IMG/VR virus record: IMGVR_UViG_3300007640_000091
Span: 1-37,327 of that record
Direction: 5' to 3' (one strand)
DNA from: a virus
Length of the DNA: 37,327 bases
A program made the translations under genes and the position numbers. Under the pieces are notes generated by a model. That model was not told where the DNA came from, did not search any database, and worked only from the letters and a program-made list of their open reading frames with translations. Below, piece by piece: positions 1,140 through 37,327 of the stretch (position 1 is its first letter; each line of letters opens with the position of its first letter).

Positions 1140-3685
1140 TGCCAGAAGCGGAGCGTACTAAACAGTACTTCTCTCTACGCAAAGGCTTGAACACACTGTC
1201 TAATGAGATCACCTTTCCGGACGAGTATACGTCGGATGAGATGAACTACACGATCGAGGCAGATGGAAGCCGTAGAAGGAGGAAGGCACTTGACCGAGAG
1301 AGTGGTGGGTCTACTAAGACTGTCGTCACTATCGCTTCGGGGCAAGTCAACCAGTCATACCTATGGGCAGATGCAGGGTCTATTGAGAACCTGTTTGTCC
1401 ATCAGATTGGCTATTCGCTCTACTTCACAGACGATGCTGAAACCATATCAACTACGTACAATTCTGACGTAATTGATCTGTCTAGCTTTCTAGTAGACTC
1501 TGGTACTTATGCAGCTTCCGATATTGGCGGCGAGCCGTGTTCCTTCGCCGTCCATAGAGGTTACCTTATTGTAACCAATAAGTACATTACTCCTCTGTAT
1601 CTTAGCTATGATGGTACCGATGTAGAGGCGAACGCTATCCAGTTGCTTATCCGAGACTTCGAAGGTATCGAAGATGGCATCAACGTAGGAGCACAGCCAG
1701 CCGGTACTATCACTGCTGACCACTACTACAACCTCCGTAACCGAGGTTGGAAAGACGCTGATATTACGGATTATAAGACCAATAGTTCTGGAAATTCGAA
1801 CCCATCAAAGAACATGATCTGGTACAAGGGCTACGCCAGAGGTACAGTTGCCAGTACTGCTGAACAAGACTGGACACAAGCGTGGTCCACCTCTAAGATA
1901 GAGAACGAAGCCTTCGGTACCTCTAGCGCACCACAGGGTGCTCTGTTCCTAGACCCCCTTAATTCAACCGTTGGTATAGCGGCTGCTGATAACGTCGGAG
2001 ACTACCAGCTCTCGTACGATTCCGGAGACTTTGCCGCAGACCCTACTAGTGCTACTACTCTTACAGTCAGCTATCCCTCTCACGGATATACTTTGGGTGA
2101 TCCGGACATAGTAATCACCGGACACCGTTGGTTGTACAACTTTACAGGTGGTGGCTCTGGTTACTGGTGGGGATTGAACAACGCACCCTATGGACTAGGA
2201 CCGTGGACTCCTGTTAACGGAGCCCCGGCTGCTGGACAGGTGCAGGTTAATGATAGTATCAATACTCTGGTATTCCACATCCCCGCTATTCCAGGCTGGG
2301 CCTCATGGAACCAGACAGATCCTGACGGTATCATCCAAGGCCAAGACCCGATAGCTAACAGCTCGGGTAGTGAACTTAGCGTAGGCCCCACAGTGTGTGA
2401 AGCCTTCGCTGGTCGTGCTTGGTACGCCGGTATCCCTGATACCTTGTGGTCCGATACTATCTTTTTCTCGCAGGTATCTCTCAAGGCTACCTCGCTAGGG
2501 TACTGCCACCAACGGGCAGACCCCACCGACCCCCTGAACAACCAGCTTCGTCCTGACGATGGTGGTACCATTATCATCCCGAACATGGGACAGGTCAAAC
2601 AGATGGTAGCCCACCGTGATGCTATCGTAGTCTTTGCTACGAACGGTGTATGGGAGATCAGTGGAGGTCGTGGTGGCTTCACGGCTGATAACTACTTAGT
2701 CCGTAAGATCACTGACATTGGGTGTAGCTCTGCCCTGTCCCCGAGACAGGTAGAGAACTCTATCATATACACAGGCCCGAACGGCATCATCTCTCTTAGT
2801 CCTAATCAGTACACGAGTCTCTTGGAAGACTCTAAGATGTCAGATGTGATAGAACCTACGTGGAACGCTATCCCGGCAAGCGACCAGCAGAACGTACAGA
2901 CAGCGTACGATGACGCTAAGAACAGGATCTACTTCCTGTACCGAGACAATTCCTACGACACGGGCTACACTTCGTTAGCCCACGGGTATAACTTCGCCCT
3001 AGTGTGGGACATGAAGAACCAAGGGTGGTATCGTCTGAACTTTGATGACACGGCTACTAAGGCTATCATCTCTATCTTCGCTATCTCAGAAGCAGACAGC
3101 TCTGAGTCTAACCAGAAGGTTAAGTTCCAGTGTCAACAGTCTACCACCACGGTAGATACGTGTGACATGAATCAGACAGACTACGTAGACTTTACCGGAT
3201 CTGAGTCCCCACTCCCGTACCTAGTAACGGGGTGGGATACCTCGTTTGGATTCCAGAACAGGAAGCAAGCCCCTATTATCCATGTGTACAACCGACGCAC
3301 AGCGACGGGTTGGACAGACCTAGGTGGTGACACTGGCTGGACTGAAGATAACGCTGGGTCTACACTAATGACTCCGTTTTGGAACTGGACAGATACCATC
3401 CAATGGGATGATCCAGACGCGCCAACGGCACAGGAGGCTTGGGATGCAACAGCGGGTAACTATGGCATTACTGGGAAGATTGGTAAGCAAGTTGAAACGT
3501 ACCGTCATATCCGTCCTTTCACTCCTCTCGCTAGCGGTGATGTGGATGGTTATCCTGTTATTGCTACTAGACATAAAGTGCGTGGTAGAGGAAGATCTCT
3601 CTCCATGCGATTCGACGGAGCAGCTACTAAGGACTCTCACCTTTTGGGCTTCACCGTAAACTACCGAATTAGTAGGAGAAAGTAA
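1139..3685 (+). CDS. Tail nozzle protein, T7 gp12-like (tail tubular protein B)
   Basis: An 848-residue protein, near the ~794 of T7 gp12. The N-terminus has the family pattern: a short 'G-L-N-T-L-S-N-E' segment, a statement of the number of components, then a basic patch (GSRRRRKALD, residues ~42-51), followed by a long beta-rich body with many Gly/Asp/Tyr/Trp residues. No membrane segment or signal peptide is present. In T7, six copies form the nozzle below the gp11 adaptor. Translation is coupled to the preceding gene through a TAATG overlap, and the small internal protein gene starts 1 nt after its stop. Confidence 0.8.
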   Translation: MPEAERTKQYFSLRKGLNTLSNEITFPDEYTSDEMNYTIEADGSRRRRKALDRESGGSTKTVVTIASGQVNQSYLWADAGSIENLFVHQIGYSLYFTDDAETISTTYNSDVIDLSSFLVDSGTYAASDIGGEPCSFAVHRGYLIVTNKYITPLYLSYDGTDVEANAIQLLIRDFEGIEDGINVGAQPAGTITADHYYNLRNRGWKDADITDYKTNSSGNSNPSKNMIWYKGYARGTVASTAEQDWTQAWSTSKIENEAFGTSSAPQGALFLDPLNSTVGIAAADNVGDYQLSYDSGDFAADPTSATTLTVSYPSHGYTLGDPDIVITGHRWLYNFTGGGSGYWWGLNNAPYGLGPWTPVNGAPAAGQVQVNDSINTLVFHIPAIPGWASWNQTDPDGIIQGQDPIANSSGSELSVGPTVCEAFAGRAWYAGIPDTLWSDTIFFSQVSLKATSLGYCHQRADPTDPLNNQLRPDDGGTIIIPNMGQVKQMVAHRDAIVVFATNGVWEISGGRGGFTADNYLVRKITDIGCSSALSPRQVENSIIYTGPNGIISLSPNQYTSLLEDSKMSDVIEPTWNAIPASDQQNVQTAYDDAKNRIYFLYRDNSYDTGYTSLAHGYNFALVWDMKNQGWYRLNFDDTATKAIISIFAISEADSSESNQKVKFQCQQSTTTVDTCDMNQTDYVDFTGSESPLPYLVTGWDTSFGFQNRKQAPIIHVYNRRTATGWTDLGGDTGWTEDNAGSTLMTPFWNWTDTIQWDDPDAPTAQEAWDATAGNYGITGKIGKQVETYRHIRPFTPLASGDVDGYPVIATRHKVRGRGRSLSMRFDGAATKDSHLLGFTVNYRISRRK

Positions 3686-15639: not shown

Positions 15640-16733
15640 TGGCTAAGCTATCACTCACCGACTTAGTATCGGGGTACGCTGCTGCTGCCGCATACAACGC
15701 TAACAATACGTTGATCGAAGCAGCACTAGAGAATACTCTGTCTAGGGATGGTACCTCTCCTAACACGATGAGTGCCAACTTGGACATGAATTCCAACAAG
15801 ATCACCAACCTTACGGATGGTACTAATAATCAGGACGCAGTTACCTACGCTCAGCTAGCAGCCGCTAGCCTTGCCAGCATAGCGAGCGTGGATGATCTCT
15901 CTGATGTCACTATCACCAGTGCTGCTAGTGGTGACGTTCTGTACTACAACGGTAGTGCTTGGGTAGACAGTGCTCTGAGTACTATTGTTACTGAAGCTAT
16001 TGTAGAGGGAGCCTTGACAGGCATCACAGCCTTTACGGTAGGGAACTACGTGTTCAACGTAGACCAGACCGTAGGTGCTGGGCAGGACAACTACGTACTG
16101 ACGTACGACCACGGTACTGGTGAGATAGGACTGGAAGCTGCTGCTGGTGGTGGTGGACTATCTAACGTAGTAGAGGACGTTACTCCTCAGCTTGGTGGCA
16201 ACCTTGATCTCAATAGCCAGACAATCAACGGTACGGGTACCATTGGTATCACTGGTGCTATCACAGCAACCAGCTACGGTGGTATCACAGAAGCTAATCT
16301 AGTTGATAAGAGTGCTGCCGAGACTGTCTCTGGTCTATGGACCATGAGTGGTGGCATCAACATGGCTGATGCTACCCTTGACAGACCTAAGCTGGAGGAC
16401 TACGGTATCACCTCTACCTCCCCGTCCTCTAGTTCTGGGGCTATCACGCTTGACCTGTCCGCCGGTAACTCGTTCCAGACTACCCTAACTGAGAACATCA
16501 CTAGTATTACACTATCTAACCCACCGGCCTCTGGTACTTACGGTGAGTGTATCTGGAAGATCACGCAGGGTGCCAGTGCGTACACTGTAACCTTCCCGGC
16601 TGCTGTATTGTGGCCTGATGGGGGTACAGCCCCGACCATCTCCACTACTAACGGAGACGTAGACATCGTAGTCATGCGTACATGGGACGCTGGTACTACG
16701 TGGTACGGTGATGTCGGACAGGACTACGCATAA
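15639..16733 (+). CDS. Tail fibre or tail appendage protein
   Basis: A 364-residue protein with low-complexity Thr/Ser/Gly/Asn beta-structure. The N-terminus contains a fibre-type repeat segment (MSANLDMNSNKITNLTDGT), the 'keep-track-of-nodes' motif common in phage fibres, followed by repeated 'SGDVLYYNGSAWVDS' and 'PQLGGNLDLNSQTINGTG' modules. The C-terminus is a compact beta region ending in GTTWYGDVGQDYA. It begins at a TAATGG overlap with the preceding gene and ends with an overlap to a second small beta-rich protein. It probably forms the host-contact fibre. Confidence 0.8.
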   Translation: MAKLSLTDLVSGYAAAAAYNANNTLIEAALENTLSRDGTSPNTMSANLDMNSNKITNLTDGTNNQDAVTYAQLAAASLASIASVDDLSDVTITSAASGDVLYYNGSAWVDSALSTIVTEAIVEGALTGITAFTVGNYVFNVDQTVGAGQDNYVLTYDHGTGEIGLEAAAGGGGLSNVVEDVTPQLGGNLDLNSQTINGTGTIGITGAITATSYGGITEANLVDKSAAETVSGLWTMSGGINMADATLDRPKLEDYGITSTSPSSSSGAITLDLSAGNSFQTTLTENITSITLSNPPASGTYGECIWKITQGASAYTVTFPAAVLWPDGGTAPTISTTNGDVDIVVMRTWDAGTTWYGDVGQDYA

Positions 16734-29109: not shown

Positions 29110-29437
29110 TATCGTCCCCCTGTGTGTGTATTAGACCATCATTATCCGATAAAGTTCCATCTAAATTTCCTAATGAATTCAATACCATAAGGACACTGAT
29201 CATCTTCTCAGTCTCCAGTGCATTGAGTCCAGCAGTATACATCCTGCTACCCCAGTGAACTAAAGAATAGAAAACCAGTGTCAGTATCCCATTGACCCAA
29301 GCATAGCTTTCTATATTCTCAGGGTACAGGGCGATCAACAGTACGTTGAAGGTAAGCAGGGCGTACCCTATTGCAGCCGTGACCCCTGCCAGTGGTGGTG
29401 TCCATTTCCTACGGACGATCTCATGCTTAGCTTCCAT
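29090..29437 (-). CDS. Two-span membrane protein
   Basis: About 115 residues from the ATG at 29437 (AAGGAG ~9 nt upstream, overlapping the VWA gene end by 11 bp). Two hydrophobic helices at residues ~18-40 (VTAAIGYALLTFNVLLIAL) and ~50-70 (WVNGILTLVFYSLVHWG) follow a basic N-terminus, and the soluble C-terminal ~45 residues are acidic. The layout is loosely like three-helix holins, but it sits in the early operon, so a membrane function in takeover or superinfection control is equally possible. Confidence 0.6.
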   Translation of the reverse strand: MEAKHEIVRRKWTPPLAGVTAAIGYALLTFNVLLIALYPENIESYAWVNGILTLVFYSLVHWGSRMYTAGLNALETEKMISVLMVLNSLGNLDGTLSDNDGLIHTQGDDNEHGSS

Positions 29438-31301
29438 TATATTTAACTCCTTGTGCCAGTACACTTAACAGTGCATCGTTGATTTCTTCAGCGTGTTGGA
29501 TAACCGAACGCTTAGTGTAGTACATCTCAACAGCATTGGATTGGATACCAATACCATACAGATCAATCTTACCTTCCTCCTCAATCTGCCTAGTTGCAGC
29601 CAGTAGTGCTGAGTGGTAGTCACCATTGTAACTACCAGCCGGGGCACCATCGCTCAGTACCAGCAGGATCTTACGTGGTTCCTTACGCCTCATCAGTTCA
29701 CGGTATGCCCACAGTACAGAGTCGGCATCGTTGTTACCACCGTGCCACTGACAGTAGGTAGCGAAGCATTGGGCCTGATCCCTAGTAGACATACGCCTAC
29801 CGAAGGGCTTAACAACTCCGATATCACAGTGTGTATTGTAAGCCGTGAACGCCGAGATCATAACCGGCATCTTAAGCTGGCGTTCAAACACATCACCTGC
29901 TCGGATAGCAGCCTGTGCTGCTAGCTCAGCCTTCCTACCACCCATGCTACCACTCCAATCCACTAGGATATGGATGGCAGTATTGATAGCTTGCTTACGT
30001 TGAAGATCGTAGAACACTCGACGGTTCCAGTTACCACCATCAACAGGTGGCATCAGCAGCCTAGCTATATCCTGATTGTTAATGCTCCCTGACTCACGGT
30101 CATTACGGATACGAGCACGGGTGTGTGACTGTACATACCGACGCACTCGGTTACCCAGTGCTGCTCCCTTATTAGCACAGGGTTCGAAGTGTTTAGCTGC
30201 TCGGCCCCTTCGCTTATAACGGTACTCATGATCCGGCAATTCATAGCCCTTAACATACAGGGGTTGAACAGCGATCTCATTGTGTGGTGAAAATGCTACA
30301 CCCTTCTGATCTTCGGGCTTACCTTCAAAGGTAATGCCAGCCGGACCACCGTTACCGTGGTTCTGTTTACCGTCGTCATGTTGTGACCAGAGTACATCCT
30401 TCCAGTTAATGACGTAGCCTTCACCCTCTTCAGCTTCGGCTTCTTCAGTACCAGATCCGTCGGCATCACCTTCACCTCCATCATCACCTTCGGTAGCACT
30501 ACTACCTTGACCCTTGCCTTTACCCTTACCTTGAGGCGGAGTCGGCGGGCTAAACTGTGGCTTATCAGGATACAGTCGGTCGAACAGGTCTAATGACAGG
30601 GCCCACACATCATCGACAGTAACACAAGCACGTAACCTATCAACGTACCCTTCCTTAACTAGAGCGGTGGTAAGATCCATGCCCTCCTCTGGCATACACT
30701 TAAGCCAGTTGTCATATGCTTGGCGAGACCAGCCATCCCAATCTCTACGTGACATCATCTGAATAGCCATGCAGATCATAGGTTTCAAGGACTCCTCATC
30801 AAACACGATGCCCTTAGCTCGTGCCTCCTGTACTTGCTCACGCCAGTACATCTCACCATCCTTACACATGATGGCGTTACCCTCACCCAGTACCTTGGCA
30901 TCACCGAGGCTAAGGCTAGCAACGTACCGTTCCATGCAATCATCCTCAAGGATATTAAAGATAGCTTGCAACTCAGGGCATGGCTGCTCCCTAATAGAGA
31001 TGTCGAATACCTCGGGCCGAAGCAAGTGACCGCACTCATGCACTACGTACATATAGGTACGGATCAGTTGCTCTTTAGTTATGGGTGACTGGATAGCCGG
31101 GAGCTTGATAATAAAATCATAAGCACTACCGGGTACGCAGTTGCTAGTAACAGCGGTGTCAATGCTATTAGACCACACTACCTGTACCCTATGACGTTCG
31201 CACCTGCGACGGATAACTTCTTGCACTCTATCTACTTCAAGGATAGATGCAGTGGTGTCATCAAACCCTAGCTGCTCGTACTCTTTGCGACCGTATCTCA
31301 T
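29427..31301 (-). CDS. CobT-like VWA-domain protein with HExxH motif
   Basis: A 624-residue protein. Residues 88-92 are HECGH in a metallopeptidase-like context (VVHECGHLL), with an EDDCMER segment downstream. Residues ~260-300 are a low-complexity linker (Gly/Lys, then Glu/Asp/Gly), as in CobT. The C-terminal VWA domain has a MIDAS motif D448-W-S450-G-S452 and LVLSDGAPAG. It is adjacent to a CobS-like AAA+ ATPase, the usual AAA+/VWA pairing. CobS and CobT form the chaperone part of aerobic cobaltochelatase, but no CobN is visible, so a chaperone-like role on another target is possible. Confidence 0.8.
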   Translation of the reverse strand: MRYGRKEYEQLGFDDTTASILEVDRVQEVIRRRCERHRVQVVWSNSIDTAVTSNCVPGSAYDFIIKLPAIQSPITKEQLIRTYMYVVHECGHLLRPEVFDISIREQPCPELQAIFNILEDDCMERYVASLSLGDAKVLGEGNAIMCKDGEMYWREQVQEARAKGIVFDEESLKPMICMAIQMMSRRDWDGWSRQAYDNWLKCMPEEGMDLTTALVKEGYVDRLRACVTVDDVWALSLDLFDRLYPDKPQFSPPTPPQGKGKGKGQGSSATEGDDGGEGDADGSGTEEAEAEEGEGYVINWKDVLWSQHDDGKQNHGNGGPAGITFEGKPEDQKGVAFSPHNEIAVQPLYVKGYELPDHEYRYKRRGRAAKHFEPCANKGAALGNRVRRYVQSHTRARIRNDRESGSINNQDIARLLMPPVDGGNWNRRVFYDLQRKQAINTAIHILVDWSGSMGGRKAELAAQAAIRAGDVFERQLKMPVMISAFTAYNTHCDIGVVKPFGRRMSTRDQAQCFATYCQWHGGNNDADSVLWAYRELMRRKEPRKILLVLSDGAPAGSYNGDYHSALLAATRQIEEEGKIDLYGIGIQSNAVEMYYTKRSVIQHAEEINDALLSVLAQGVKYNGS

Positions 31302-31310
31302 TGGTTACTC

Positions 31311-32420
31311 CTATTTAATTGCCGATGCAAACACTTGCATATACATTTCCTTAACGATAGCCTTGTCGTTATTGGATAGCTTGTCGAACCAGCATACCTT
31401 GAGTGCTGTAGCCATGTCACCATACATGGATATCTTATCAGCCCAGTTGAGCAGGGCTCGGACACTGAACGTAGACATAAGCTCGTCCTTCTTAAACGCT
31501 AAGCGTACTGCCTTGGCAAAGTCCAGCATACTATTAACCTGATCCTCGTTAAGATCCGGGGCATACTTGTTAAGGATCTTACGTTCCTCTGTCTTACCAA
31601 GGTAGTCCATCTCGATCACCGTATCAATACGGTCCAGTGTACTGACATCCTGCACCTCAGCTTGGAAGGTACCCGTCTCATCACCCAGACCTACGGTGTT
31701 GTCTGTCATTACGTAGTGCCACTTACCAATAGGTGCCAGCATCTTACGCTCATCAGCACTCATGCCTACTGCATTAGGCAGCAGCAAGAAGCGGCTCGAC
31801 TTCTCACGTAGAGACTGTAGTACCAGTGCACTGCTATGACGGAACGCCTCATCCTCAATGAAGATACCACCATATCGCAGGCTATCGGTCAGTGCCGTAG
31901 GTTCTTGCCTGATATGTGGGTTGCCATCCTCATCATAGATGATGCCCATGTTACCAGTGAAGTGTGCCTCCCTAGTCTCAGCGTTGCAGTTCATACGCCA
32001 GCATGGGTACCTGAATGTAGCAGCCCATTGCTTGGCAAGGTCTGACTTACCAGTACCTTGCAGTCCGAACAGCAGGGTGGTGTCGTTAGTAGACAGGGCA
32101 GCAGCGAACTTCTCGGTAGCTTCACGAGGCCAGATCCAGTTCTCATTAGGATCAGGTATCATACACCGTGCCTCTTCCGGCCAGTCCTCATCAGTGAACA
32201 CAGCTACCGGCAGGTTCTCCGGTACCAGTGTCGGCTTCCAATTGAACAGCTCACCGAATGTCTTGTAAGTAACACCCTCTTGTGCTACGTACTCACGTTC
32301 CTTAACATCGGACAACTTGGCTAGCTTATCAGCTACCTCGTCTACCTTATTAGCTGCGTCACCTTCCTGTACCATACGACGGATAACATCGGGGTCATAC
32401 ATACCTTTCATTGCTGCCAT
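31311..32420 (-). CDS. CobS/MoxR-like AAA+ ATPase
   Basis: A 369-residue ATPase. Walker A is GLQGTGKS (119-126, K125), Walker B IFIEDEA (D190, E191), with an Arg-rich segment and C-terminal helical lid following. The N-terminal ~95 residues include a CobS-like small domain (YKTFGELFNWKP). The gene ends 10 nt before the VWA partner; its start is a TAATGG overlap with the small gene upstream. MoxR/CobS ATPases remodel protein targets together with VWA partners. The name 'porphyrin/cobalt chelatase subunit' is customary for phage homologues but not demonstrated by sequence alone. Confidence 0.87.
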   Translation of the reverse strand: MAAMKGMYDPDVIRRMVQEGDAANKVDEVADKLAKLSDVKEREYVAQEGVTYKTFGELFNWKPTLVPENLPVAVFTDEDWPEEARCMIPDPNENWIWPREATEKFAAALSTNDTTLLFGLQGTGKSDLAKQWAATFRYPCWRMNCNAETREAHFTGNMGIIYDEDGNPHIRQEPTALTDSLRYGGIFIEDEAFRHSSALVLQSLREKSSRFLLLPNAVGMSADERKMLAPIGKWHYVMTDNTVGLGDETGTFQAEVQDVSTLDRIDTVIEMDYLGKTEERKILNKYAPDLNEDQVNSMLDFAKAVRLAFKKDELMSTFSVRALLNWADKISMYGDMATALKVCWFDKLSNNDKAIVKEMYMQVFASAIK

Positions 32421-32623
32421 TACTCGTCCTCCTCAAGGGACTTACCGTCCAGTTCTACAATCACCAGCCTAATCTTAAGCGTGGTCTCATTGTCCTTGCC
32501 TTCATTGATGACGGCATCTAAGATACCCTCATTAATATCAGCATCGAACATAGCCTCGATCATCTGTCGCCAGAACTGATCCATCGTTACGTCCGTAGCT
32601 TTCCCAAAGTCTTTAGTTATCAT
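32420..32623 (-). CDS. Small acidic hypothetical protein
   Basis: 67 residues from the ATG at 32623, chosen because GGAGGA lies 4 nt upstream; longer starts overlap the gene upstream without a ribosome site. It begins MITKDFGKATDVTMDQFWRQ, continues with an acidic helix and ends SLEEDE. Coupled to the CobS-like gene. No family recognised. Confidence 0.6.
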   Translation of the reverse strand: MITKDFGKATDVTMDQFWRQMIEAMFDADINEGILDAVINEGKDNETTLKIRLVIVELDGKSLEEDE

Positions 32624-32813
32624 CGCTTCCTCCGGTAGGATCGAATCGGGCCCATCTATCTCCGTCCATAAAACTGTAAGTGCCATCCTCATCCCATCCT
32701 ATTACGTTAATCAACTCAATGATCTTGGCTACTAGATCAAACAACTCAATGTCCTGCTCCTCTAGTACCTCGATCAATCGTTCCTTACTCAGCCCTCTGT
32801 ACTCCTCACTCAT
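32613..32813 (-). CDS. Small acidic hypothetical protein
   Basis: A 66-residue protein, helical at the start (LSKERLIEVLEEQDIELFDL) with an acidic C-terminus (DPTGGSDDN). It overlaps both neighbours by a few bases. Strong negative charge is common among phage takeover proteins and DNA mimics, but nothing specific supports that here. Confidence 0.6.
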   Translation of the reverse strand: MSEEYRGLSKERLIEVLEEQDIELFDLVAKIIELINVIGWDEDGTYSFMDGDRWARFDPTGGSDDN

Positions 32814-33031: not shown

Positions 33032-33062
33032 CTCATCCTCCTCGGTCGGTGGTCTCGGTCTC

Positions 33063-33103
33063 ATCGCGAAGCCGAAGGCTGGCGGGCGCGGGCGAGCGTG
33101 AGG
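33063..33103 (-). repeat. Spacer hairpin element, copy C
   Basis: Plus-strand CGCGA, then the 11-nt hairpin AGCCGAAGGCT (33070-33080; CCUUCGG in the leftward transcript, a UUCG tetraloop), a GC-rich insert, and GCGAGCGTGAGG. The flanks match copies A (34162-34191) and B (35521-35550). The adjacent GAGCGTGAGG/CTCACCGCTC hairpin overlaps the stop of the membrane-protein gene upstream in the operon. Confidence 0.6.
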
Positions 33104-33104
33104 C

Positions 33105-33287
33105 TCACCGCTCTTCGCTCCAATCTTCCATTAAGACCTTGAGTATACTAGCTAGAATAAAGAACACAACTACACAGGCTGCTACTATGATAGGTAGTGC
33201 CAGCCATATGATGAATGTACCTACATCCATGAATGTAGCTATGAACAAGAAGCAACACAGCACACACCATATTAAGTACGCTTTCAT
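33105..33287 (-). CDS. Small two-span membrane protein
   Basis: A 60-residue, almost wholly hydrophobic protein with helices at ~4-22 (YLIWCVLCCFLFIATFMD) and ~27-50 (IWLALPIIVAACVVVFFIL), ending in a charged tail (EDWSEER). It overlaps the next membrane-protein gene by 4 bp. Probably an early inner-membrane protein; function unknown. Confidence 0.6.
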   Translation of the reverse strand: MKAYLIWCVLCCFLFIATFMDVGTFIIWLALPIIVAACVVVFFILASILKVLMEDWSEER

Positions 33288-33484
33288 AACACATACTCCT
33301 CTAAGTACCGTCGGTATTCAACGGGGTCAACAGCAACACCCTGATAGGTATTGATCTTCTCTTTCTCTATCTCTCCTCCTTTAGGGGAGGAGAGAGAATA
33401 GTATACAAACAAAGAGAAAGAGAATAAGAACATGATGAACACACCCAATAGGATACGCACCACCTCTGTCAACCACATCTTCAC
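33284..33484 (-). CDS. Small single-span membrane protein
   Basis: A 66-residue protein with a membrane helix at ~8-32 (VVRILLGVFIMFLFSFSLFV) and a soluble C-terminus containing KGGEIEKEKINTYQG. The coding DNA at 33350-33425 is unusually purine/pyrimidine-skewed (runs of CTCTTTCTCTATCTC and GGGAGGAGAGAGAA on the plus strand) and can form a mirror or hairpin structure. Confidence 0.6.
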   Translation of the reverse strand: MKMWLTEVVRILLGVFIMFLFSFSLFVYYSLSSPKGGEIEKEKINTYQGVAVDPVEYRRYLEEYVL

Positions 33485-33684
33485 AGCATCTTCCAGTTAA
33501 CACGAGGGTTAACTGTCCTCCACTCTAGTGGATAGACAGCCGGGTTACGTGCTGCCTCACTAGCAGTGTACAATTGGGCATCCTCTAAGCCCTTGATCTG
33601 CTTACCTTTCTTGTCCTCTACGTACTCAGTCCATCCATCGTACGTCTTAAACTTACAAGTCTCTACATTATACAGTGCTTTCAT
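33481..33684 (-). CDS. Small hypothetical protein
   Basis: 67 residues from the ATG at 33684 (MKALYNVETC), with GAGG ~9 nt upstream; a second ATG at 33693 has no spacing for a ribosome site. Basic middle (EDKKGKQIKG) and Trp/Tyr-rich ends. Overlaps the gene upstream by 17 bp. Not recognised. Confidence 0.6.
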   Translation of the reverse strand: MKALYNVETCKFKTYDGWTEYVEDKKGKQIKGLEDAQLYTASEAARNPAVYPLEWRTVNPRVNWKML

Positions 33685-34033
33685 CTTGCTCATCCTCTGT
33701 CTGTGTCCAGCCAAACCGTTTAGCTGTGTGATATAACTCAAGCTCTAAGATTAACACCTCCTCTCGCAGCTTACCAAGGAACTCAAGCTGTCGCTTAGCT
33801 GCCTTGTTACTGTCTATGTACATGTCATAGTGTACCTGACCAGAGCAATCACTCAGTATCAGGTCGGCGCTGATCCACTTGTCATCCTCACCTATACCTG
33901 TCGAAACAGTACGTACGAGGCTGGATCTGTCCCCTCCCTCACCTACATTACGCAGCCACGTACGGTACGTGCTGTCAGTGTACGTCATACCATTCCGGTC
34001 GCTTACTTTAGTCCGGGTCTTGTCGTTTATCAT
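33668..34033 (-). CDS. Hypothetical protein, 121 aa
   Basis: Start at the ATG 34033, which has GAGGAA about 8 nt upstream and lies inside the basic 44-residue gene. Begins MINDKTRTKVSDRNGMTYTD; middle is mixed, C-terminal half a long amphipathic helix (QLEFLGKLREEVLILELELY) and an acidic end. No family recognised. Confidence 0.6.
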   Translation of the reverse strand: MINDKTRTKVSDRNGMTYTDSTYRTWLRNVGEGGDRSSLVRTVSTGIGEDDKWISADLILSDCSGQVHYDMYIDSNKAAKRQLEFLGKLREEVLILELELYHTAKRFGWTQTEDEQDESTV

Positions 34034-34142
34034 GCTTACGTTTCCTCGTGTACTTGGTGCGGACTCTATGGGCTGCACCTTTGCCCATTATAGCAGGGCT
34101 ATGCCCTGTTCTGTACTTAACCTTGCGCTTATCCTTTGCCAT
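34008..34142 (-). CDS. 44-aa highly basic protein
   Basis: Begins MAKDKRKVKYRTGHSPAIMG and ends RKRKHDKRQDPD, with about 17 Lys/Arg in 44 residues. GGAGGG lies 9 nt upstream of the ATG. It overlaps the next gene by 26 bp in another frame. A 6-bp hairpin (CAGGGC/GCCCTG, 34094-34108) lies inside it, and element copy A is about 20 nt upstream. Nucleic-acid binding is plausible. Confidence 0.6.
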   Translation of the reverse strand: MAKDKRKVKYRTGHSPAIMGKGAAHRVRTKYTRKRKHDKRQDPD

Positions 34143-34161
34143 GCTGCTCTCCCTCCGGTTC

Positions 34162-34191
34162 AACGCGAGTCCTTCGGACTGCGAGCGTGGG
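34162..34191 (-). repeat. Spacer hairpin element, copy A
   Basis: Plus-strand AACGCGAG, core hairpin AGTCC-TTC-GGACT (34168-34180), then GCGAGCGTGGG. Flanks are identical to copy B while the 11-nt core differs and has the opposite loop (TTC here, GAA in B), so pairing is kept while sequence changes. It lies about 20 nt upstream of a leftward start. Confidence 0.65.
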
Positions 34192-34209
34192 TGATAGGAT
34201 ACCTCTCAC

Positions 34210-34231
34210 AAGCCACTCATTTGAGTGGCTT
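34210..34231 (-). terminator. Perfect 9-bp hairpin at a stop codon
   Basis: AAGCCACTC and GAGTGGCTT around ATTT. The stop codon of the 70-residue gene (34217-34219) is inside the structure. There is no U-run in the transcript, so it is more likely an RNA end-protector or processing signal than an intrinsic terminator. Confidence 0.5.
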
Positions 34232-34429
34232 CCAAGTGAGACCCTTATCGTGATAGAACAAGTAAGTCACTGTCTTGTTCCGAGTCACAGTAAACTGTGT
34301 GGCAAGGGCATCTAGTACCCGTGCCTTATACAGTACGTCACCGTCCTCATCAAGGACGTTAACGGAATCCCCGGTATTAACCGGGGTCCGTCCAGTGTAC
34401 CGATAGCTACTCGCCACGGTACTCACCAT
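34217..34429 (-). CDS. Hypothetical protein, 70 aa
   Basis: From the ATG at 34429 (AGG ~7 nt upstream), MVSTVASSYRYTGRTPVNTG, then an acidic loop (DEDGDVLYKARVL) and a beta-rich end. It looks like a small SH3-like or barrel fold, but no family is recognised. Hairpins at 34342-34358 and 34369-34386 (CCCCGG/CCGGGG) fall within it. It overlaps the 45-residue gene by 23 bp. Confidence 0.55.
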   Translation of the reverse strand: MVSTVASSYRYTGRTPVNTGDSVNVLDEDGDVLYKARVLDALATQFTVTRNKTVTYLFYHDKGLTWKPLK

Positions 34430-34544
34430 CGGTGAGCCTAAGTAACAGGTACTCACCCCAAAATGCCATCTCGCTAGCGAGATCAGCACATACTTGCTCA
34501 TCATGTGCCTCGATCAGGTCATCATATGTTACCATGTCATCCAT
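34407..34544 (-). CDS. 45-aa acidic protein
   Basis: Begins MDDMVTYDDLIEAHDEQVCA and ends LTDGEYRGE. AAGGGAG lies 7-8 nt upstream of the ATG. A perfect 16-nt palindrome (ATCTCGCTAGCGAGAT, 34468-34483) lies within it. It overlaps the neighbours on both sides in different frames. Function unknown. Confidence 0.55.
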   Translation of the reverse strand: MDDMVTYDDLIEAHDEQVCADLASEMAFWGEYLLLRLTDGEYRGE

Positions 34545-34659
34545 CGTGCTGCTCCCTTATACGTTGATACAGTCGGGCTATATGCCGAGTGTCCTCGGCC
34601 ATCTCAGCCCAGAGATACAGTATGTACAGCACTAGTGCTGCGATTATGTAGCCTTCCAT
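34537..34659 (-). CDS. 40-aa single-span membrane protein
   Basis: Starts MEGYIIAALVLYILYLW, a membrane helix, followed by a charged tail (AEMAEDTRHIARLYQRIREQ). GAGGAA is 6 nt upstream, and the start is at a TAATG junction with the 26-residue gene. Overlaps the next gene by 8 bp. Confidence 0.55.
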   Translation of the reverse strand: MEGYIIAALVLYILYLWAEMAEDTRHIARLYQRIREQHDG

Positions 34660-34739
34660 TACTGGTTCCTCATGTAGTTAATAAGAAGGGGTATCATAAC
34701 GATACCCCACACAATAAACGCTCCGATGATGGCAGTCAT
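34659..34739 (-). CDS. 26-aa hydrophobic peptide
   Basis: MTAIIGAFIVWGIVMIPLLI followed by NYMRNQ: one membrane helix and a short basic end. The start overlaps the zinc-ribbon gene stop (ATGA) and the stop forms TAATG with the next gene. An 8-bp hairpin (GGGGTATC/GATACCCC, 34688-34708) lies inside it. Tight coupling supports translation, but confidence is limited by length. Confidence 0.5.
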   Translation of the reverse strand: MTAIIGAFIVWGIVMIPLLINYMRNQ

Positions 34740-34933
34740 TCTCCGAAGCTCCGGTCCCAACAGGTACCACATATACCTGACATGAGCATCTCACGTAGTG
34801 TAGCCGACAGTTCAGGCATGGCCTGCTGTATCAGCATACCCTTACGCCATGCCATGTACCCTTCGTAAGGTACATCGACATCGTGACTGTTGCTACAGAT
34901 AGGACACGTTGTAACTACGTTAATTTCTTGCAT
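34736..34933 (-). CDS. Small two-CxxC zinc ribbon protein
   Basis: 65 residues from the ATG at 34933 (GAGGAG 6 nt upstream): MQEINVVTTCPICSNSHDVD, a helical middle, and SGICGTCWDRSFGE at the end. The CPIC and CGTC pairs form a zinc site. Small proteins with this layout are common in phages; role unknown. Codons upstream of 34933 have no ribosome site and are treated as non-coding. Confidence 0.65.
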   Translation of the reverse strand: MQEINVVTTCPICSNSHDVDVPYEGYMAWRKGMLIQQAMPELSATLREMLMSGICGTCWDRSFGE

Positions 34934-35053
34934 CGGAATCTCCTCATGTATGGGTATATGTACCCTGCTCGCCTTGGTGCTGCCGCTGCCCAACTGTACA
35001 GTGTGCAAGCTATTATTTAACGCAGCTAGCCAAGGCAAGCCAGAGTAACAAGC

Positions 35054-35077
35054 AAGCCCACTCATTAGAGTGGGCTT
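35054..35077 (-). terminator. Perfect 10-bp hairpin between genes
   Basis: AAGCCCACTC and GAGTGGGCTT around ATTA, 14 nt downstream of the stop of the 120-residue gene in the leftward transcript. The following transcript is GCTTGTTAC, so it lacks a clear U-run. Shares stem end and loop type with the hairpin at 34210-34231. Confidence 0.5.
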
Positions 35078-35090
35078 AATGTTACCCCGA

Positions 35091-35453
35091 TTACTCGGGC
35101 TGGAAGGTAGCGACCTTGCCAAGGTAGCCCTTATCACGGACCTGTATGTCGGCGTGGCGGCTAGCCTGAGCATAAGCCAGTACCGTGCGACCGGCCAAGT
35201 TCTGCCGGGCATACAGTACAATCTCGCCACCAACTTTGTTGGCGTGAGCTTGAGCGGCTACCTTACGGTTCGACAGATAGGCAGGCTTCACCTTATAGGC
35301 TGACTTGGTTTCCGTATCGGAAACTACAGGCGTAGGTGCCGGTGCTGCGGGCTGTGCCTGAGTACCAGCTAGTACGTTAACAAGCGCCGTGATAGCGTCC
35401 GTCTGACCTGCGATGGCTTCCAGAATTTGCTTGTTGCTGACTCGATTCGTCAT
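35091..35453 (-). CDS. Hypothetical protein, 120 aa
   Basis: Starts MTNRVSNKQILEAIAGQTDA with AAAGGAG 8 nt upstream. Residues ~30-45 are an Ala/Pro linker; the C-terminal domain (residues ~52-120) is basic with mixed structure (SNRKVAAQAHANKVGGEIVL; ASRHADIQVRDKGYLGKV). Its stop codon lies exactly in the loop of a CCCGA/TCGGG hairpin (35086-35099), and another near-perfect hairpin (GTTTCCG/CGGAAAC, 35308-35324) lies in the coding region. Element copy B is upstream. No family recognised. Confidence 0.65.
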   Translation of the reverse strand: MTNRVSNKQILEAIAGQTDAITALVNVLAGTQAQPAAPAPTPVVSDTETKSAYKVKPAYLSNRKVAAQAHANKVGGEIVLYARQNLAGRTVLAYAQASRHADIQVRDKGYLGKVATFQPE

Positions 35454-35520
35454 GTCATGTGCTCCTTTGCATCATGTGATTTGCTTGGGTCGGTAGCCCT
35501 TTGCTGCCGGCCTCGAACTC

Positions 35521-35550
35521 AACGCGAGGACGAAGTCCGGCGAGCGTGGG
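35521..35550 (-). repeat. Spacer hairpin element, copy B
   Basis: Plus-strand AACGCGAG, core hairpin GGAC-GAA-GTCC (35528-35538), then GCGAGCGTGGG. Flanks are the same as copy A, with a different hairpin core. It lies in the 106-bp spacer upstream of the 120-residue gene. Confidence 0.65.
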
Positions 35551-35559
35551 CGGGATTGT

Positions 35560-35973
35560 TTACGTGAGGACCAGTTCCACCATCTCATCACAGTCGTTAG
35601 ACTGTGACCGTTTGGCAGCCCTTTCCGCTTTCTTCAACGCTTTGCGTTGACGCTTTGTCATACGGCCTTTGGCCGTTCGTCCGCCCTTATACGCAGGTAG
35701 GATACCAGCCATGGTATCCCAGTTAACGTCTCGGCCCGGACCGTCCAGCTTGCCGATCTGGTCGTCAGTATACTGACGACCGACCCAGCTTATCTCGTCT
35801 CCTTCGGAGACCATCGTGACACGTTCGCTGCCTTTGGCAGCTTCGTATTCCATTGCCACGGTCTCCCAAAGGGTCCCTGCTACGTCGTCAAAGACGACGC
35901 CGGGTTCCATTCCAAATAGCTCCGCTATTTCAAGCGCCGTGTCTACAGCTATGCTGTCGAAGATGTGGTTCAT
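35560..35973 (-). CDS. Hypothetical protein, 137 aa, hairpin-rich gene
   Basis: Start at ATG 35973 (MNHIFDSIAVDTALEIAELF); its ribosome site GGGAG is in the 3' arm of a hairpin. N-terminal half acidic and helical; residues ~100-125 strongly basic (GRMTKRQRKALKKAERAAKR), suggesting nucleic-acid contact. Seven perfect inverted repeats lie within the coding region, five of them with the 3-nt loop being exactly one codon (K, K, E, K, F). No family recognised. Confidence 0.65.
   Translation of the reverse strand: MNHIFDSIAVDTALEIAELFGMEPGVVFDDVAGTLWETVAMEYEAAKGSERVTMVSEGDEISWVGRQYTDDQIGKLDGPGRDVNWDTMAGILPAYKGGRTAKGRMTKRQRKALKKAERAAKRSQSNDCDEMVELVLT
35635..35930 (-). repeat. Cluster of in-gene 6-3-6 hairpins
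   Basis: Perfect inverted repeats at 35635-35649 (CAACGC-TTT-GCGTTG), 35662-35676 (ACGGCC-TTT-GGCCGT), 35761-35780 (20-nt palindrome), 35797-35811 (GTCTCC-TTC-GGAGAC), 35827-35841 (GCTGCC-TTT-GGCAGC), 35883-35899 (CGTCGTC-AAA-GACGACG) and 35914-35930 (AAATAGC-TCC-GCTATTT). Sequences differ; the shape and the C-G loop closure are shared, except in the palindrome. Confidence 0.8.
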
Positions 35974-35980
35974 TTTCGTT

Positions 35981-35994
35981 CTCCCTTTAGGGAG
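35981..35994 (-). promoter_or_regulatory. Shine-Dalgarno hairpin of the 137-aa gene
   Basis: Leftward transcript CTCCC-TAAA-GGGAG, then 7 nt to the ATG at 35973. The GGGAG ribosome site is the 3' arm of the stem, so folding would hide it. Confidence 0.6.
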
Positions 35995-36050
35995 CCGGCC
36001 AGTCCAGCTCCCGATTGCCATACTAGTATGGGGCCAAAGTTCCCCGATGT

Positions 36051-36068
36051 CAAGCCCTTTAGGGCTTG
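36051..36068 (-). terminator. 7-bp hairpin after the 76-aa gene
   Basis: CAAGCCC-TTTA-GGGCTTG begins immediately after the stop of the 76-residue gene in the leftward transcript. There is no U-run after it. Its loop (UAAA in the transcript) equals that of the Shine-Dalgarno hairpin at 35981-35994. Confidence 0.45.
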
Positions 36069-36299
36069 TTAAATCTCGACTCCGAAGAGTCGAGATACGC
36101 GAGATTCGCCGTAAGCATCAAACCAATCGGCCCATTCGGGGCTCATCTCATCTAGCTTCGCTAGATATTGCGTGATTGCTTCACACAACGTCGAGAAGGC
36201 TACGCCTTCTTCAACGCACCATCGGATCGCTTTGCGATCCAGAGCAGCTCGATCCGAAGCCTGAAAGGCTTTAATGCGACCCAATTCCGAAATTGCCAT
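36069..36299 (-). CDS. Hypothetical protein, 76 aa, first gene of the leftward operon
   Basis: Starts MAISELGRIKAFQASDRAAL at 36299; its ribosome site (GGAGAGG) is the 3' arm of the 68-nt inverted repeat upstream. Helical, with Trp-rich middle (SPEWADWFDAYG). Four perfect hairpins lie in the coding region: 36073-36096 (10-bp arms, UUCG loop in the transcript), 36150-36166, 36194-36210 and 36224-36240. As the first leftward gene it is probably expressed very early. No family recognised. Confidence 0.65.
   Translation of the reverse strand: MAISELGRIKAFQASDRAALDRKAIRWCVEEGVAFSTLCEAITQYLAKLDEMSPEWADWFDAYGESRVSRLFGVEI
36073..36240 (-). repeat. Cluster of in-gene hairpins, 76-aa gene
   Basis: 36073-36096 (ATCTCGACTC/GAGTCGAGAT, loop UUCG in the transcript), 36150-36166 (ATCTAGC-TTC-GCTAGAT), 36194-36210 (AGAAGGC-TAC-GCCTTCT), 36224-36240 (GGATCGC-TTT-GCGATCC). 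Transcript-sense loops are UUCG, GAA, GUA and AAA. Confidence 0.8.
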
Positions 36300-36304
36300 T
36301 TGCC

Positions 36305-36372
36305 CTCTCCTCTCTCTAAGAAATAAATCAATCACCCCTAACGGGGTGATTTATTTCTTAGAGAGAGGAGAG
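36305..36372 (-). repeat. 68-nt inverted repeat holding the Shine-Dalgarno of the first leftward gene
   Basis: Arms 36305-36330 and 36347-36372 are perfect 26-nt complements; inside them CCCC/GGGG pair around TAAC with a 4-nt (ATCA) bulge. In the leftward transcript the 3' arm ends AGAGAGAGGAGAGGGCAA before the ATG at 36299, so the ribosome site is locked in the stem. Direct observation; control role inferred. Confidence 0.85.
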
Positions 36373-36793
36373 ACCCCAGACCGACCAGCCAAGGCCACTC
36401 TGAGGACTACTAACGTAGTCCTAGGCGCAGACGTTAACGATAGCGTTAGCTATCGCCGCGTGTGCACATAACGCGAGAGATGACAACGCTGTCAATTGCC
36501 TTAATCGACAGTTACTTACGTAACTGTACGCGTGTAGGTGGGTGTATTCGAAGTTGCTAATATAACATAATCAGCTGCCAGATGTGGGAATTTCGGACCA
36601 GATTCGGTTGATTTGACATAACGGGGAGGGGCGGGGTCCGGGGGCCTCGCGTGTACGGGGAAAGACACCTTAAAAATTTCTCACAGAAATCATGGATATC
36701 CTTGTGGTTCTAGGTATACTAAGTACTTGAGAACTAAGGGATAAAAAAAATAAATTGAACTTTTTCGTGTTTTCATTGTCTAATACCCTTGAA

Positions 36794-36948
36794 GAGGGGT
36801 TGAAAACCAAGGGACAACCCCTCGACTTAGGGAGTCGCCTCCCCTAAGAGGTCGGCTCCCTAGTCAAGTCTAGGTTAAAATACATGGAGGTCTACCCCGT
36901 GGGGGGTAGCCACCCATATTGTCAACTTACCGTAAGGGTAAGATTGAC
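36794..36948 (+). repeat. Hairpin cluster with competing stems ahead of the rightward genes
   Basis: 36794-36823 (GAGGGGTTG/CAACCCCTC, 12-nt loop); 36824-36865, where the arm CTTAGGGAG (36826-36834) can pair either with CCCTAAG (36842-36848) or with CTCCCTAG (36856-36863), giving exclusive structures; 36892-36909 (CTACCCC/GGGGTAG); 36921-36948 (GTCAA-CTTACC/GGTAAG-A-TTGAC). The switchable arms resemble an attenuator or leader. Confidence 0.65.
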
Positions 36949-36988
36949 GGAGATCTATGGGGTGGCCCATAACCACTTTATCAACTTA

Positions 36989-37018
36989 GAGTCGCAAGAC
37001 TCGTTGAGCCTTGCTCAA
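36989..37018 (+). repeat. Two hairpins just before the first rightward gene
   Basis: GAGTC-GCAA-GACTC (36989-37002, GNRA tetraloop) and TTGAGC-CTT-GCTCAA (37004-37018). The second abuts the AAGGA ribosome site of the gene at 37030. Confidence 0.65.
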
Positions 37019-37029
37019 AGGATATATCA

Positions 37030-37179
37030 ATGCCCCTTAAAAAACCTGCCCCTGTCAAGAAACCTTCTCTTCCGCCCTCTTCCTCTCCGGGGAAGCGGGC
37101 TAAGACAACTGAAGAACTCCTTAGAGAGCTGGAGAAGGACCGTCAGAGACGGGACGCCTCTGTTAACAAGAGATCTTAA
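37030..37179 (+). CDS. 49-aa basic, Pro/Ser-rich protein
   Basis: Begins MPLKKPAPVKKPSLPPSSSP and ends with a charged helix (TEELLRELEKDRQRRD) and NKRS. AAGGA lies 8 nt before the ATG. It is the first rightward gene after the divergent region and is probably at the head of the virion operon. Disordered basic N-terminus plus helix; no family recognised. Confidence 0.55.
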   Translation: MPLKKPAPVKKPSLPPSSSPGKRAKTTEELLRELEKDRQRRDASVNKRS

Positions 37180-37181
37180 CC

Positions 37182-37285
37182 CCATGACAACTGTCATGGT
37201 GGAAAACCCGAAGGGTTTGTAAATGTCAGGTATAGAAGACACTAATAACCCCGAAGGGGTTACTATGGATGCCACACGGGGTGGC
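37182..37285 (+). repeat. Hairpins around the start of the last gene
   Basis: 37182-37199 (CCATGAC/GTCATGG), 37204-37218 (AAACCC-GAA-GGGTTT), 37246-37262 (TAACCCC-GAA-GGGGTTA, in frame with the Glu codon as loop) and 37271-37285 (GCCAC/GTGGC). Confidence 0.75.
37204..37218 (+). promoter_or_regulatory. Shine-Dalgarno hairpin of the gene at 37223
   Basis: AAACCC-GAA-GGGTTT. The only plausible ribosome site (AAGGG, 37211-37215, 7 nt from the ATG) lies in its loop and 3' arm. Confidence 0.5.
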
Positions 37286-37327
37286 TTCGCTGTTCTCAAG
37301 GATGCTCAGGGTCGGTTCCGGACCCAA
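37223..37327 (+). CDS. Rightward gene, 3' truncated by window end
   Basis: Thirty-five codons are visible, MSGIEDTNNPEGVTMDATRG then GFAVLKDAQGRFRTQ, still open at the end. Too short to identify. By position it should be an early member of the rightward virion operon, possibly a head or packaging gene; that is inference only. Confidence 0.55.
   Translation, partial: MSGIEDTNNPEGVTMDATRGGFAVLKDAQGRFRTQ

Follow-up and report, generated by a model that had tools for sequence, protein, structure and literature searches.

A dense field of small perfect hairpins with nearly free arm sequence at the early operon start of related phages

Hairpins in origin DNA that are read by structure are known from single-strand initiation sites and from phage primase-recognition hairpins, which are few, larger and conserved in sequence. 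Short perfect hairpins with a small loop and a C-G closing pair serve, in the early region of Schitoviridae, as promoters of the N4 virion RNA polymerase; the C:G loop-closing pair, together with a 5' G and a 3' A in the loop, is needed there for extrusion at physiological superhelicity (PMC4496689). Perfect repeats within functional genes have been reported for nematomorph mitochondria, where coding palindromes of at least 15 base pairs (bp; mean 43, arms up to 142 bp) are spread across genes and dynamically gained and lost, and where active maintenance was inferred from the lack of any excess of imperfect repeats (PMC6649704). In quasipalindrome correction (PMC7202029, PMC8604942), template switching turns imperfect into perfect repeats through paired multi-nucleotide changes, at scattered mutational hot spots. 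Here we describe a field of small hairpins, found at one end of the IMG/VR virus record IMGVR_UViG_3300007640_000091 (linear, 37,327 bases, analysed over its whole length and called the window below) and in related phages, which resembles each of these systems in part.

The field differs from all of them. The early promoters of N4 are three in number, share conserved stem bases and belong with a recognised giant polymerase, whereas here dozens of hairpins per genome have free arms, lie in both orientations and are in many cases coding; the field elements are also unlike the initiation and primase-recognition hairpins. Unlike the nematomorph palindromes, the stems are uniformly 6-8 bp, obey a loop rule and occupy one phage locus, and, in contrast to the scattered hot spots of quasipalindrome correction, the uniform field is bound to that locus and kept across related genomes. 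No precedent in phages was found in the open-licence PMC literature, nor any described system in which dozens of hairpins of fixed geometry and free arms are overlaid on protein-coding genes and remain flawless as their stems are rewritten. The observations point to an undescribed device that acts at the level of DNA, at the site at which early transcription and probably also replication are initiated; what is inherited here would be the shape of the DNA instead of its sequence.

Unless stated otherwise, hairpins were defined as perfect inverted repeats with arms of at least 6 bp and loops of 3-4 nucleotides (nt). An earlier note on the window had counted about 35 elements in its last 4.3 kb; the region 33,060-37,327 indeed contains 35, compared with 2.05 +/- 1.62 in dinucleotide shuffles, and 22 with arms of at least 7 bp, compared with 0.51 expected. 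The start at 33,060 given in that note has to be moved, as 33,060-34,000 is not enriched (1 hairpin, 0.5 expected): the field begins near 34,090 and continues to the contig end, interrupted by a hairpin-poor stretch at about 36,530-36,890. Between 34,000 and 36,540, 27 hairpins are found (1.36 expected), 19 of them with arms of at least 7 bp (0.2 expected). The remainder of the window is close to background in hairpin number, as had been noticed for the first 33 kb, apart from a slight surplus of short hairpins over positions 1-33060 when arms of at least 5 bp are counted (114, 71 expected).

Field hairpins occupy both genes and intergenic gaps. Since synonymous-codon shuffles give far fewer hairpins, both for the window's own field genes (18 observed, 1.6 after shuffling) and for the field genes of eight genomes (128 observed, 11.2 +/- 3.0), neither codon content nor protein sequence explains them. 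Protein constraint as a cause is ruled out by the same shuffles and by the nearly hairpin-free FAM7 homologues of two relatives, G019 and G020; an assembly artefact is ruled out by the presence of the feature in contigs from several independent samples. The field is confirmed as real, under dinucleotide and codon shuffling alike, and is stronger than first stated.

Relatives were IMG/VR contigs retrieved by helicase and CobS profiles. Exactly one field each, at the homologous place and with the other parts of the genome at background, was found in G001, G002, G003, G004, G005, G007 and G021; G006 is 99.98% identical to G002 over the field. The non-identical field-bearing phages number eight, window included, with about 20-45 elements per genome. 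In all, the field is found where the early operon starts and borders on a conserved core that is a putative divergent promoter, and its families of small genes (FAM0, 1, 2, 3, 4, 5, 6, 7 and 18) are shared among relatives. No field was found in the named Zobellviridae scanned (SIO1, MEP401/402, CVT22, HP1, ICP2, GX1, T2S2) or in the distant contigs G016 and G017, and neither DNA-level BLAST of the field nor tblastn of FAM7 and FAM0 produced a match in annotated phages. A spike in MW202697 (L006, about 35.4-35.6 kb, at the late/early junction) was rejected as a hairpin field, being an (AT)n tract.

One design recurs among the 250 hairpins with arms of at least 6 bp in the fields of G000-G007, where the near-identical G002 and G006 are both included. 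Loops are of 3 nt in 175 and the closing pair is 5'C-3'G in 195, so that the C-G closure and the 3-4 nt loops seen earlier in the window hold throughout the clade. The most frequent triloops are GAA (38), TTC (19), TTT (16), TAC (15), AAA, GTA and ATA (12 each), TCT (10) and GGA (9), followed by rarer types; 156 of the 175 read R-N-A (R, purine; N, any base) or its reverse complement T-N-Y (Y, pyrimidine). Over 181 triloop hairpins, C-G closes 151, G..A with its complement T..C accounts for 92, and A..A with T..T for 64. Arm lengths of triloop hairpins show a peak at 7 bp and no decay: 61, 73, 33 and 9 hairpins have arms of 6, 7, 8 and 9 bp, where chance predicts 3.1, 0.8, 0.2 and 0.05. Arm sequences are nearly free, with 203 distinct inner 6-bp arms among 242 hairpins and no conserved stem bases of the N4 kind. 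The median spacing, centre to centre, is 48 bases. Loops had been reported to coincide with single codons, and 57 of the 96 triloops in coding DNA do begin at codon position 1, a phase that a closing C as third and a G as first codon base would favour.

Stems are either perfect, in the Watson-Crick sense, or missing altogether. When the arm length is set to 7 bp, there are 161 perfect stems where 2.13 are expected (75-fold), whereas a single interior mismatch occurs at merely 1.7-2.2 times chance for every mismatch type: G.T 9 (4.9 expected), A.C 12 (5.4), R.R 18 (10.8) and Y.Y 16 (9.5). This near-lack of one-mismatch stems would imply an active process of arm-to-arm copying. Hairpins projected on the orthologous codons of a relative behave in a bimodal way, as all six inner pairs are intact in 34 cases, one is broken in 5, and at least two in 84; the projection includes 84 compensated pairs. 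For the 22 comparisons perfect in both members, a set in which broken pairs are absent by construction, 30 of 140 base pairs have changed on both sides. At one FAM3 site the variants CATCATC GTA GATGATG, CATTGTC ATA GACAATG and CATCGTC CTT GACGATG are found; in FAM6 (window 36,224-36,240) GGATCGC AAA GCGATCC corresponds to TCGATTGC AAA GCAATCGA, the stem being retained alongside an Arg/Cys difference, and in FAM7 (window 35,588-35,607) TCACAGTC TAAC GACTGTGA corresponds to AGAGGCTGC TAAT GCAGCCTCT.

Stems shared by both members diverge at 0.30, compared with 0.33 for unpaired sites. Between G005 and L014, which are 99.8% identical over 11 kb, one hairpin differs in both arms, and there is in addition a 21-base insertion; recombination could also account for this case. 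Because the elements are many, redundant and perfect, and stem divergence is not slowed, their upkeep is hard to obtain by mutation and selection alone, and templated correction from arm to arm would be the simplest addition, an argument already put forward for the coding palindromes of nematomorph mitochondria (PMC6649704). The hallmark of quasipalindrome correction, that is, paired changes in two arms with few imperfect intermediates, is present in the fields; size and place, which that process would leave unconstrained, are constrained here, with arms peaking at 7 bp and one locus in eight phages.

A block conserved in the alignment of G000, G005, G019 and G020 (TTAGACAAT ... AAAAGTTC ... 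TTTCTCCGAGATAATTT) lies in the core between the divergent genes, where putative divergent promoters are placed; in the window the block is contained in positions 36528..36891 and reads, in the early sense, TTAGACAAT...AAAAGTTC...TTTCTC(C)GAGA, in common with the relatives. From this core the field extends over the initial 1.3-2.4 kb of the early unit, ending near the FAM0 gene; in the window it also takes in a few hundred bases at the beginning of the late unit. The GC-skew minimum coincides with the field in G001, G002, G003 and G005.

FAM0 is present in nine out of nine field-bearing records, its gene near the end of each field. The protein (112-132 amino acids, aa) has an N-terminal helix, an Ala/Pro linker and a C-terminal alpha-beta domain with the conserved basic stretch GEEVVLYARRNxxGETKLAYA. 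Its AlphaFold model (AF2) has a mean pLDDT (predicted local distance difference test) of 72 and is confident solely in the C-terminal domain (about 82-88); no significant fold match was obtained in PDB, and sequence searches produced nothing of note in Pfam or PDB. Our guess, from co-occurrence and composition, is that FAM0 is the hairpin-binding partner. A 66-aa family (window 32613-32813) is likewise found in field-bearing genomes and, as FAM0, not in G019 and G020.

In the CobS and helicase trees, the podovirus contigs G019 and G020 fall together with G000 and G005. Neither has a field, their FAM7 homologues contain no hairpin with arms of at least 6 bp, and FAM0 was not found in them; given their place in the trees, a loss of the field is the simplest account. 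At their junction DnaA boxes are clustered (one mismatch allowed), with six starts in 132 bases in G019 and five in 63 in G020, which suggests a phage origin dependent on host DnaA; no field-bearing genome has such a cluster at this place. An origin reading is attractive because these field-less sisters are without FAM0 and carry DnaA boxes at the junction. The contrast between field loss, FAM0 and DnaA boxes rests on one evolutionary event and is only a lead, yet by comparing these sister phages a part played in origin function could be tested directly.

Our preferred reading, to which we give a probability of about 0.42, is that the field is an array of DNA mini-hairpins where the early operon starts, next to the divergent-promoter core, which is plausibly the replication origin, and that the array is kept perfect by hairpin-templated correction plus selection and probably bound by FAM0. 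The elements would fold as DNA hairpins, through extrusion under negative supercoiling or else within single-stranded origin or replication DNA; this is suggested by the likeness of the loop rule to the requirement for N4 extrusion. A structure-reading protein, most likely FAM0, would bind many copies irrespective of arm sequence, and might thereby open, prime or organise the origin or early region. A broken arm would be re-copied from the opposite one, by a templated correction of the quasipalindrome type, imperfect elements would be removed by selection, and turnover would proceed by whole units. The bolder version, in which a shape-read, sequence-independent origin or early element, with FAM0 as reader and arms maintained by copying, replaces a DnaA-dependent origin, we regard as rather doubtful. 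If arm-to-arm copying does take place, it could be studied in a phage.

The earlier note had taken a strand bias of purine-N-A loops as a sign of function in RNA. The bias is seen in the window (10 R : 3 Y with the strict motif), but triloops in the non-coding parts of all fields are strand neutral (35 R : 36 Y), and pairing gives no support to RNA: inside fixed 7-bp stems G.T does not exceed A.C, and at the first mismatch past the stem 43 G.T and 38 A.C are found, with no preference for G.U at stem ends. Terminator-like T or A tracts accompany 6 of 242 hairpins (2 sense, 4 antisense) and the Rfam search gave no match; intrinsic terminators, known RNAs and tRNAs do not account for the field. 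The set of loop types is its own reverse complement, as would hold for a structure in double-stranded DNA or in either single strand, whereas a device in RNA would need two loop types complementary by accident. Structure in DNA is the more likely, and among the options first listed, mini-hairpin signals in single-stranded DNA fit best; what stood of that interpretation is a real, confined and probably functional field, which also proved to be conserved with compensation in relatives, and what did not is RNA. On the other side, several findings weigh against our preferred reading. Longer stems with an interior mismatch and arms not fixed show G.T 10 times and A.C twice, some cases being homologous, which is a hint of RNA pairing; single loop types are asymmetric between strands (TCT 10, AGA 1; GGA 9, TCC 1), an asymmetry not predicted by a DNA model in which both strands are fully equivalent; and the field occupies transcribed DNA immediately downstream of the promoter core, as would be expected of an RNA device. 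The minimum of GC skew is about 3 kb off the field in G004, and gene orientation alone could explain these minima; the link between FAM0 and field is a single loss event, and the FAM0 model is of modest confidence. That hairpins in the 5' part of early transcripts serve as sites for a phage RNA-binding protein, shield the mRNA or adjust how it is processed is, on balance, unlikely.

A local hot spot of hairpin-templated synthesis (quasipalindrome, fold-back), creating and perfecting repeats with no function of their own, would yield the all-or-none perfection, the turnover by whole units, the strand symmetry, the unslowed divergence of shared stems and the hairpin rewritten on both arms between nearly identical strains. 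Template switching is reported to homogenise the arms of inverted repeats and to invert spacers (PMC8604942), and a like inference was drawn by the authors of the nematomorph study (PMC6649704). Such a process would, however, need very precise targeting, given arms that peak at 7 bp instead of decaying in length, strongly restricted loops, and a bounded field at one locus in eight phages, whose loss coincides with that of FAM0; we consider a purely mutational origin somewhat improbable. That the hairpins act one by one as promoters of an RNA polymerase carried in the virion is very improbable: short stem, small loop and C-G closing are those of N4 promoters (PMC4496689), whose G..A loop, counted with its complement, is seen in 92 of 181 triloops, and the phage encodes a 1,593-aa internal virion protein, but the elements number dozens, in both orientations and inside genes, with stem bases not conserved, and no virion RNA polymerase was found among the large virion proteins tested in PHROGs, Pfam and PDB sequence searches, the contig being incomplete.

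By protein profiles, tblastn and gene order, the window is placed with Zobellviridae-like podoviruses. Profile matches include a tail appendage and an internal virion protein, both typical of the family, ribonucleotide reductase, DNA polymerase, a DnaB-like helicase, a primase and a CobS/CobT-like pair, and the genes for CobT, CobS, primase, helicase and polymerase follow one another as they do in Vibrio phage ICP2. Terminase, portal and capsid genes were not found in the window, which is therefore probably a fragment. Early genes are encoded by the minus strand and reach to about 36.3 kb, whereas late genes are encoded by the plus strand and begin at about 37.0 kb, which places the field at a divergent early/late junction. 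The features are collected in Table 1.

Table 1. Features of the hairpin field and its surroundings (window coordinates unless a contig is named; a dot stands for unstranded)
Feature	Position	Strand	Remarks
Whole hairpin field	34094..37262	.	runs on to contig end
Hairpin-poor core	36528..36891	.	between early (-) and late (+) genes
Long inverted repeat	36305..36372	.	early leader; ~30-bp arms differing by 4 nt; self-match 86%
FAM0 gene	35091..35453	-	120 aa; candidate hairpin-binding partner
FAM7 gene	35560..35973	-	137 aa; hairpin-rich; G019/G020 homologue without hairpins
FAM6 gene	36069..36299	-	76 aa; first early gene; hairpin-rich
FAM1 gene	34217..34504	-	far edge of field
FAM2 gene	34008..34163	-	small basic protein; field edge
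66-aa gene	32613..32813	-	outside field; family tracks field presence
First late gene	37030..37179	+	49 aa; hairpins flanking
Hairpin 6 bp, loop TAT	34094..34108	.
Hairpin 9 bp, loop ATTT	34210..34231	.
Hairpin 7 bp, loop ATTA	34369..34386	.
Hairpin 6 bp, loop ATC	34422..34436	.
Hairpin 6 bp, loop CTAG	34468..34483	.
Hairpin 6 bp, loop TGTC	34584..34599	.
Hairpin 10 bp, loop ATTA	35054..35077	.	after FAM0
Hairpin 7 bp, loop TAT	35308..35324	.	within FAM0
Hairpin 8 bp, loop GTTA	35588..35607	.	wholly different stem in G005, 7/8 pairs changed
Hairpin 7 bp, loop TTT	35634..35650	.
Hairpin 6 bp, loop TTT	35662..35676	.	one pair rewritten in G005
Hairpin 8 bp, loop GCCA	35700..35719	.
Hairpin 9 bp, loop TATA	35760..35781	.
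Hairpin 6 bp, loop TTC	35797..35811	.
Hairpin 6 bp, loop TTT	35827..35841	.	same in G005
Hairpin 7 bp, loop AAA	35883..35899	.	common to G005
Hairpin 7 bp, loop TCC	35914..35930	.
Hairpin 7 bp, loop TTTA	36051..36068	.
Hairpin 10 bp, loop CGAA	36073..36096	.
Hairpin 7 bp, loop TTC	36150..36166	.	early sense C-GAA-G; kept in G001
Hairpin 7 bp, loop TAC	36194..36210	.
Hairpin 7 bp, loop TTT	36224..36240	.	also in G001, 2 compensated pairs
Hairpin 6 bp, loop GAA	36257..36271	.
Hairpin 9 bp, loop TAAC	36330..36351	.	leader
Hairpin 8 bp, loop TAAC	36403..36422	.	leader
Hairpin 7 bp, loop GTTA	36438..36455	.	leader
Hairpin 8 bp, loop TTAC	36508..36527	.	first on early side
Hairpin 7 bp, loop GTGG	36892..36909	.	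first on late side
Hairpin 6 bp, loop GTGG	36956..36971	.
Hairpin 6 bp, loop CTT	37004..37018	.
Hairpin 7 bp, loop AACT	37182..37199	.
Hairpin 6 bp, loop GAA	37204..37218	.
Hairpin 7 bp, loop GAA	37246..37262	.
DnaA-box cluster, G019 (L144-L146)	15939-16070		CobS-oriented
DnaA-box cluster, G020 (L147-L148)	1615-1677		CobS-oriented

The CobT-/CobS-like pair of the window (29427-32420) adjoins the phage replication genes, as it also does in ICP2; no relative of CobS was found in bacterial genomes. tRNA genes occur near the junction in three relatives (L109:1394-1469, L105:6368-6445, L112:13153-13387). The long inverted repeat of the early leader surrounds the hairpin at 36330-36351, is much longer than the other elements and may be an extended product of the process by which hairpins are made. 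A second long inverted repeat, TCTTTCTCTATCTCTCCTCC..GGGGAGGAGAGAG..AAAGAGAAAGAG, is located at about 33358-33424 of the window, outside the dense field.

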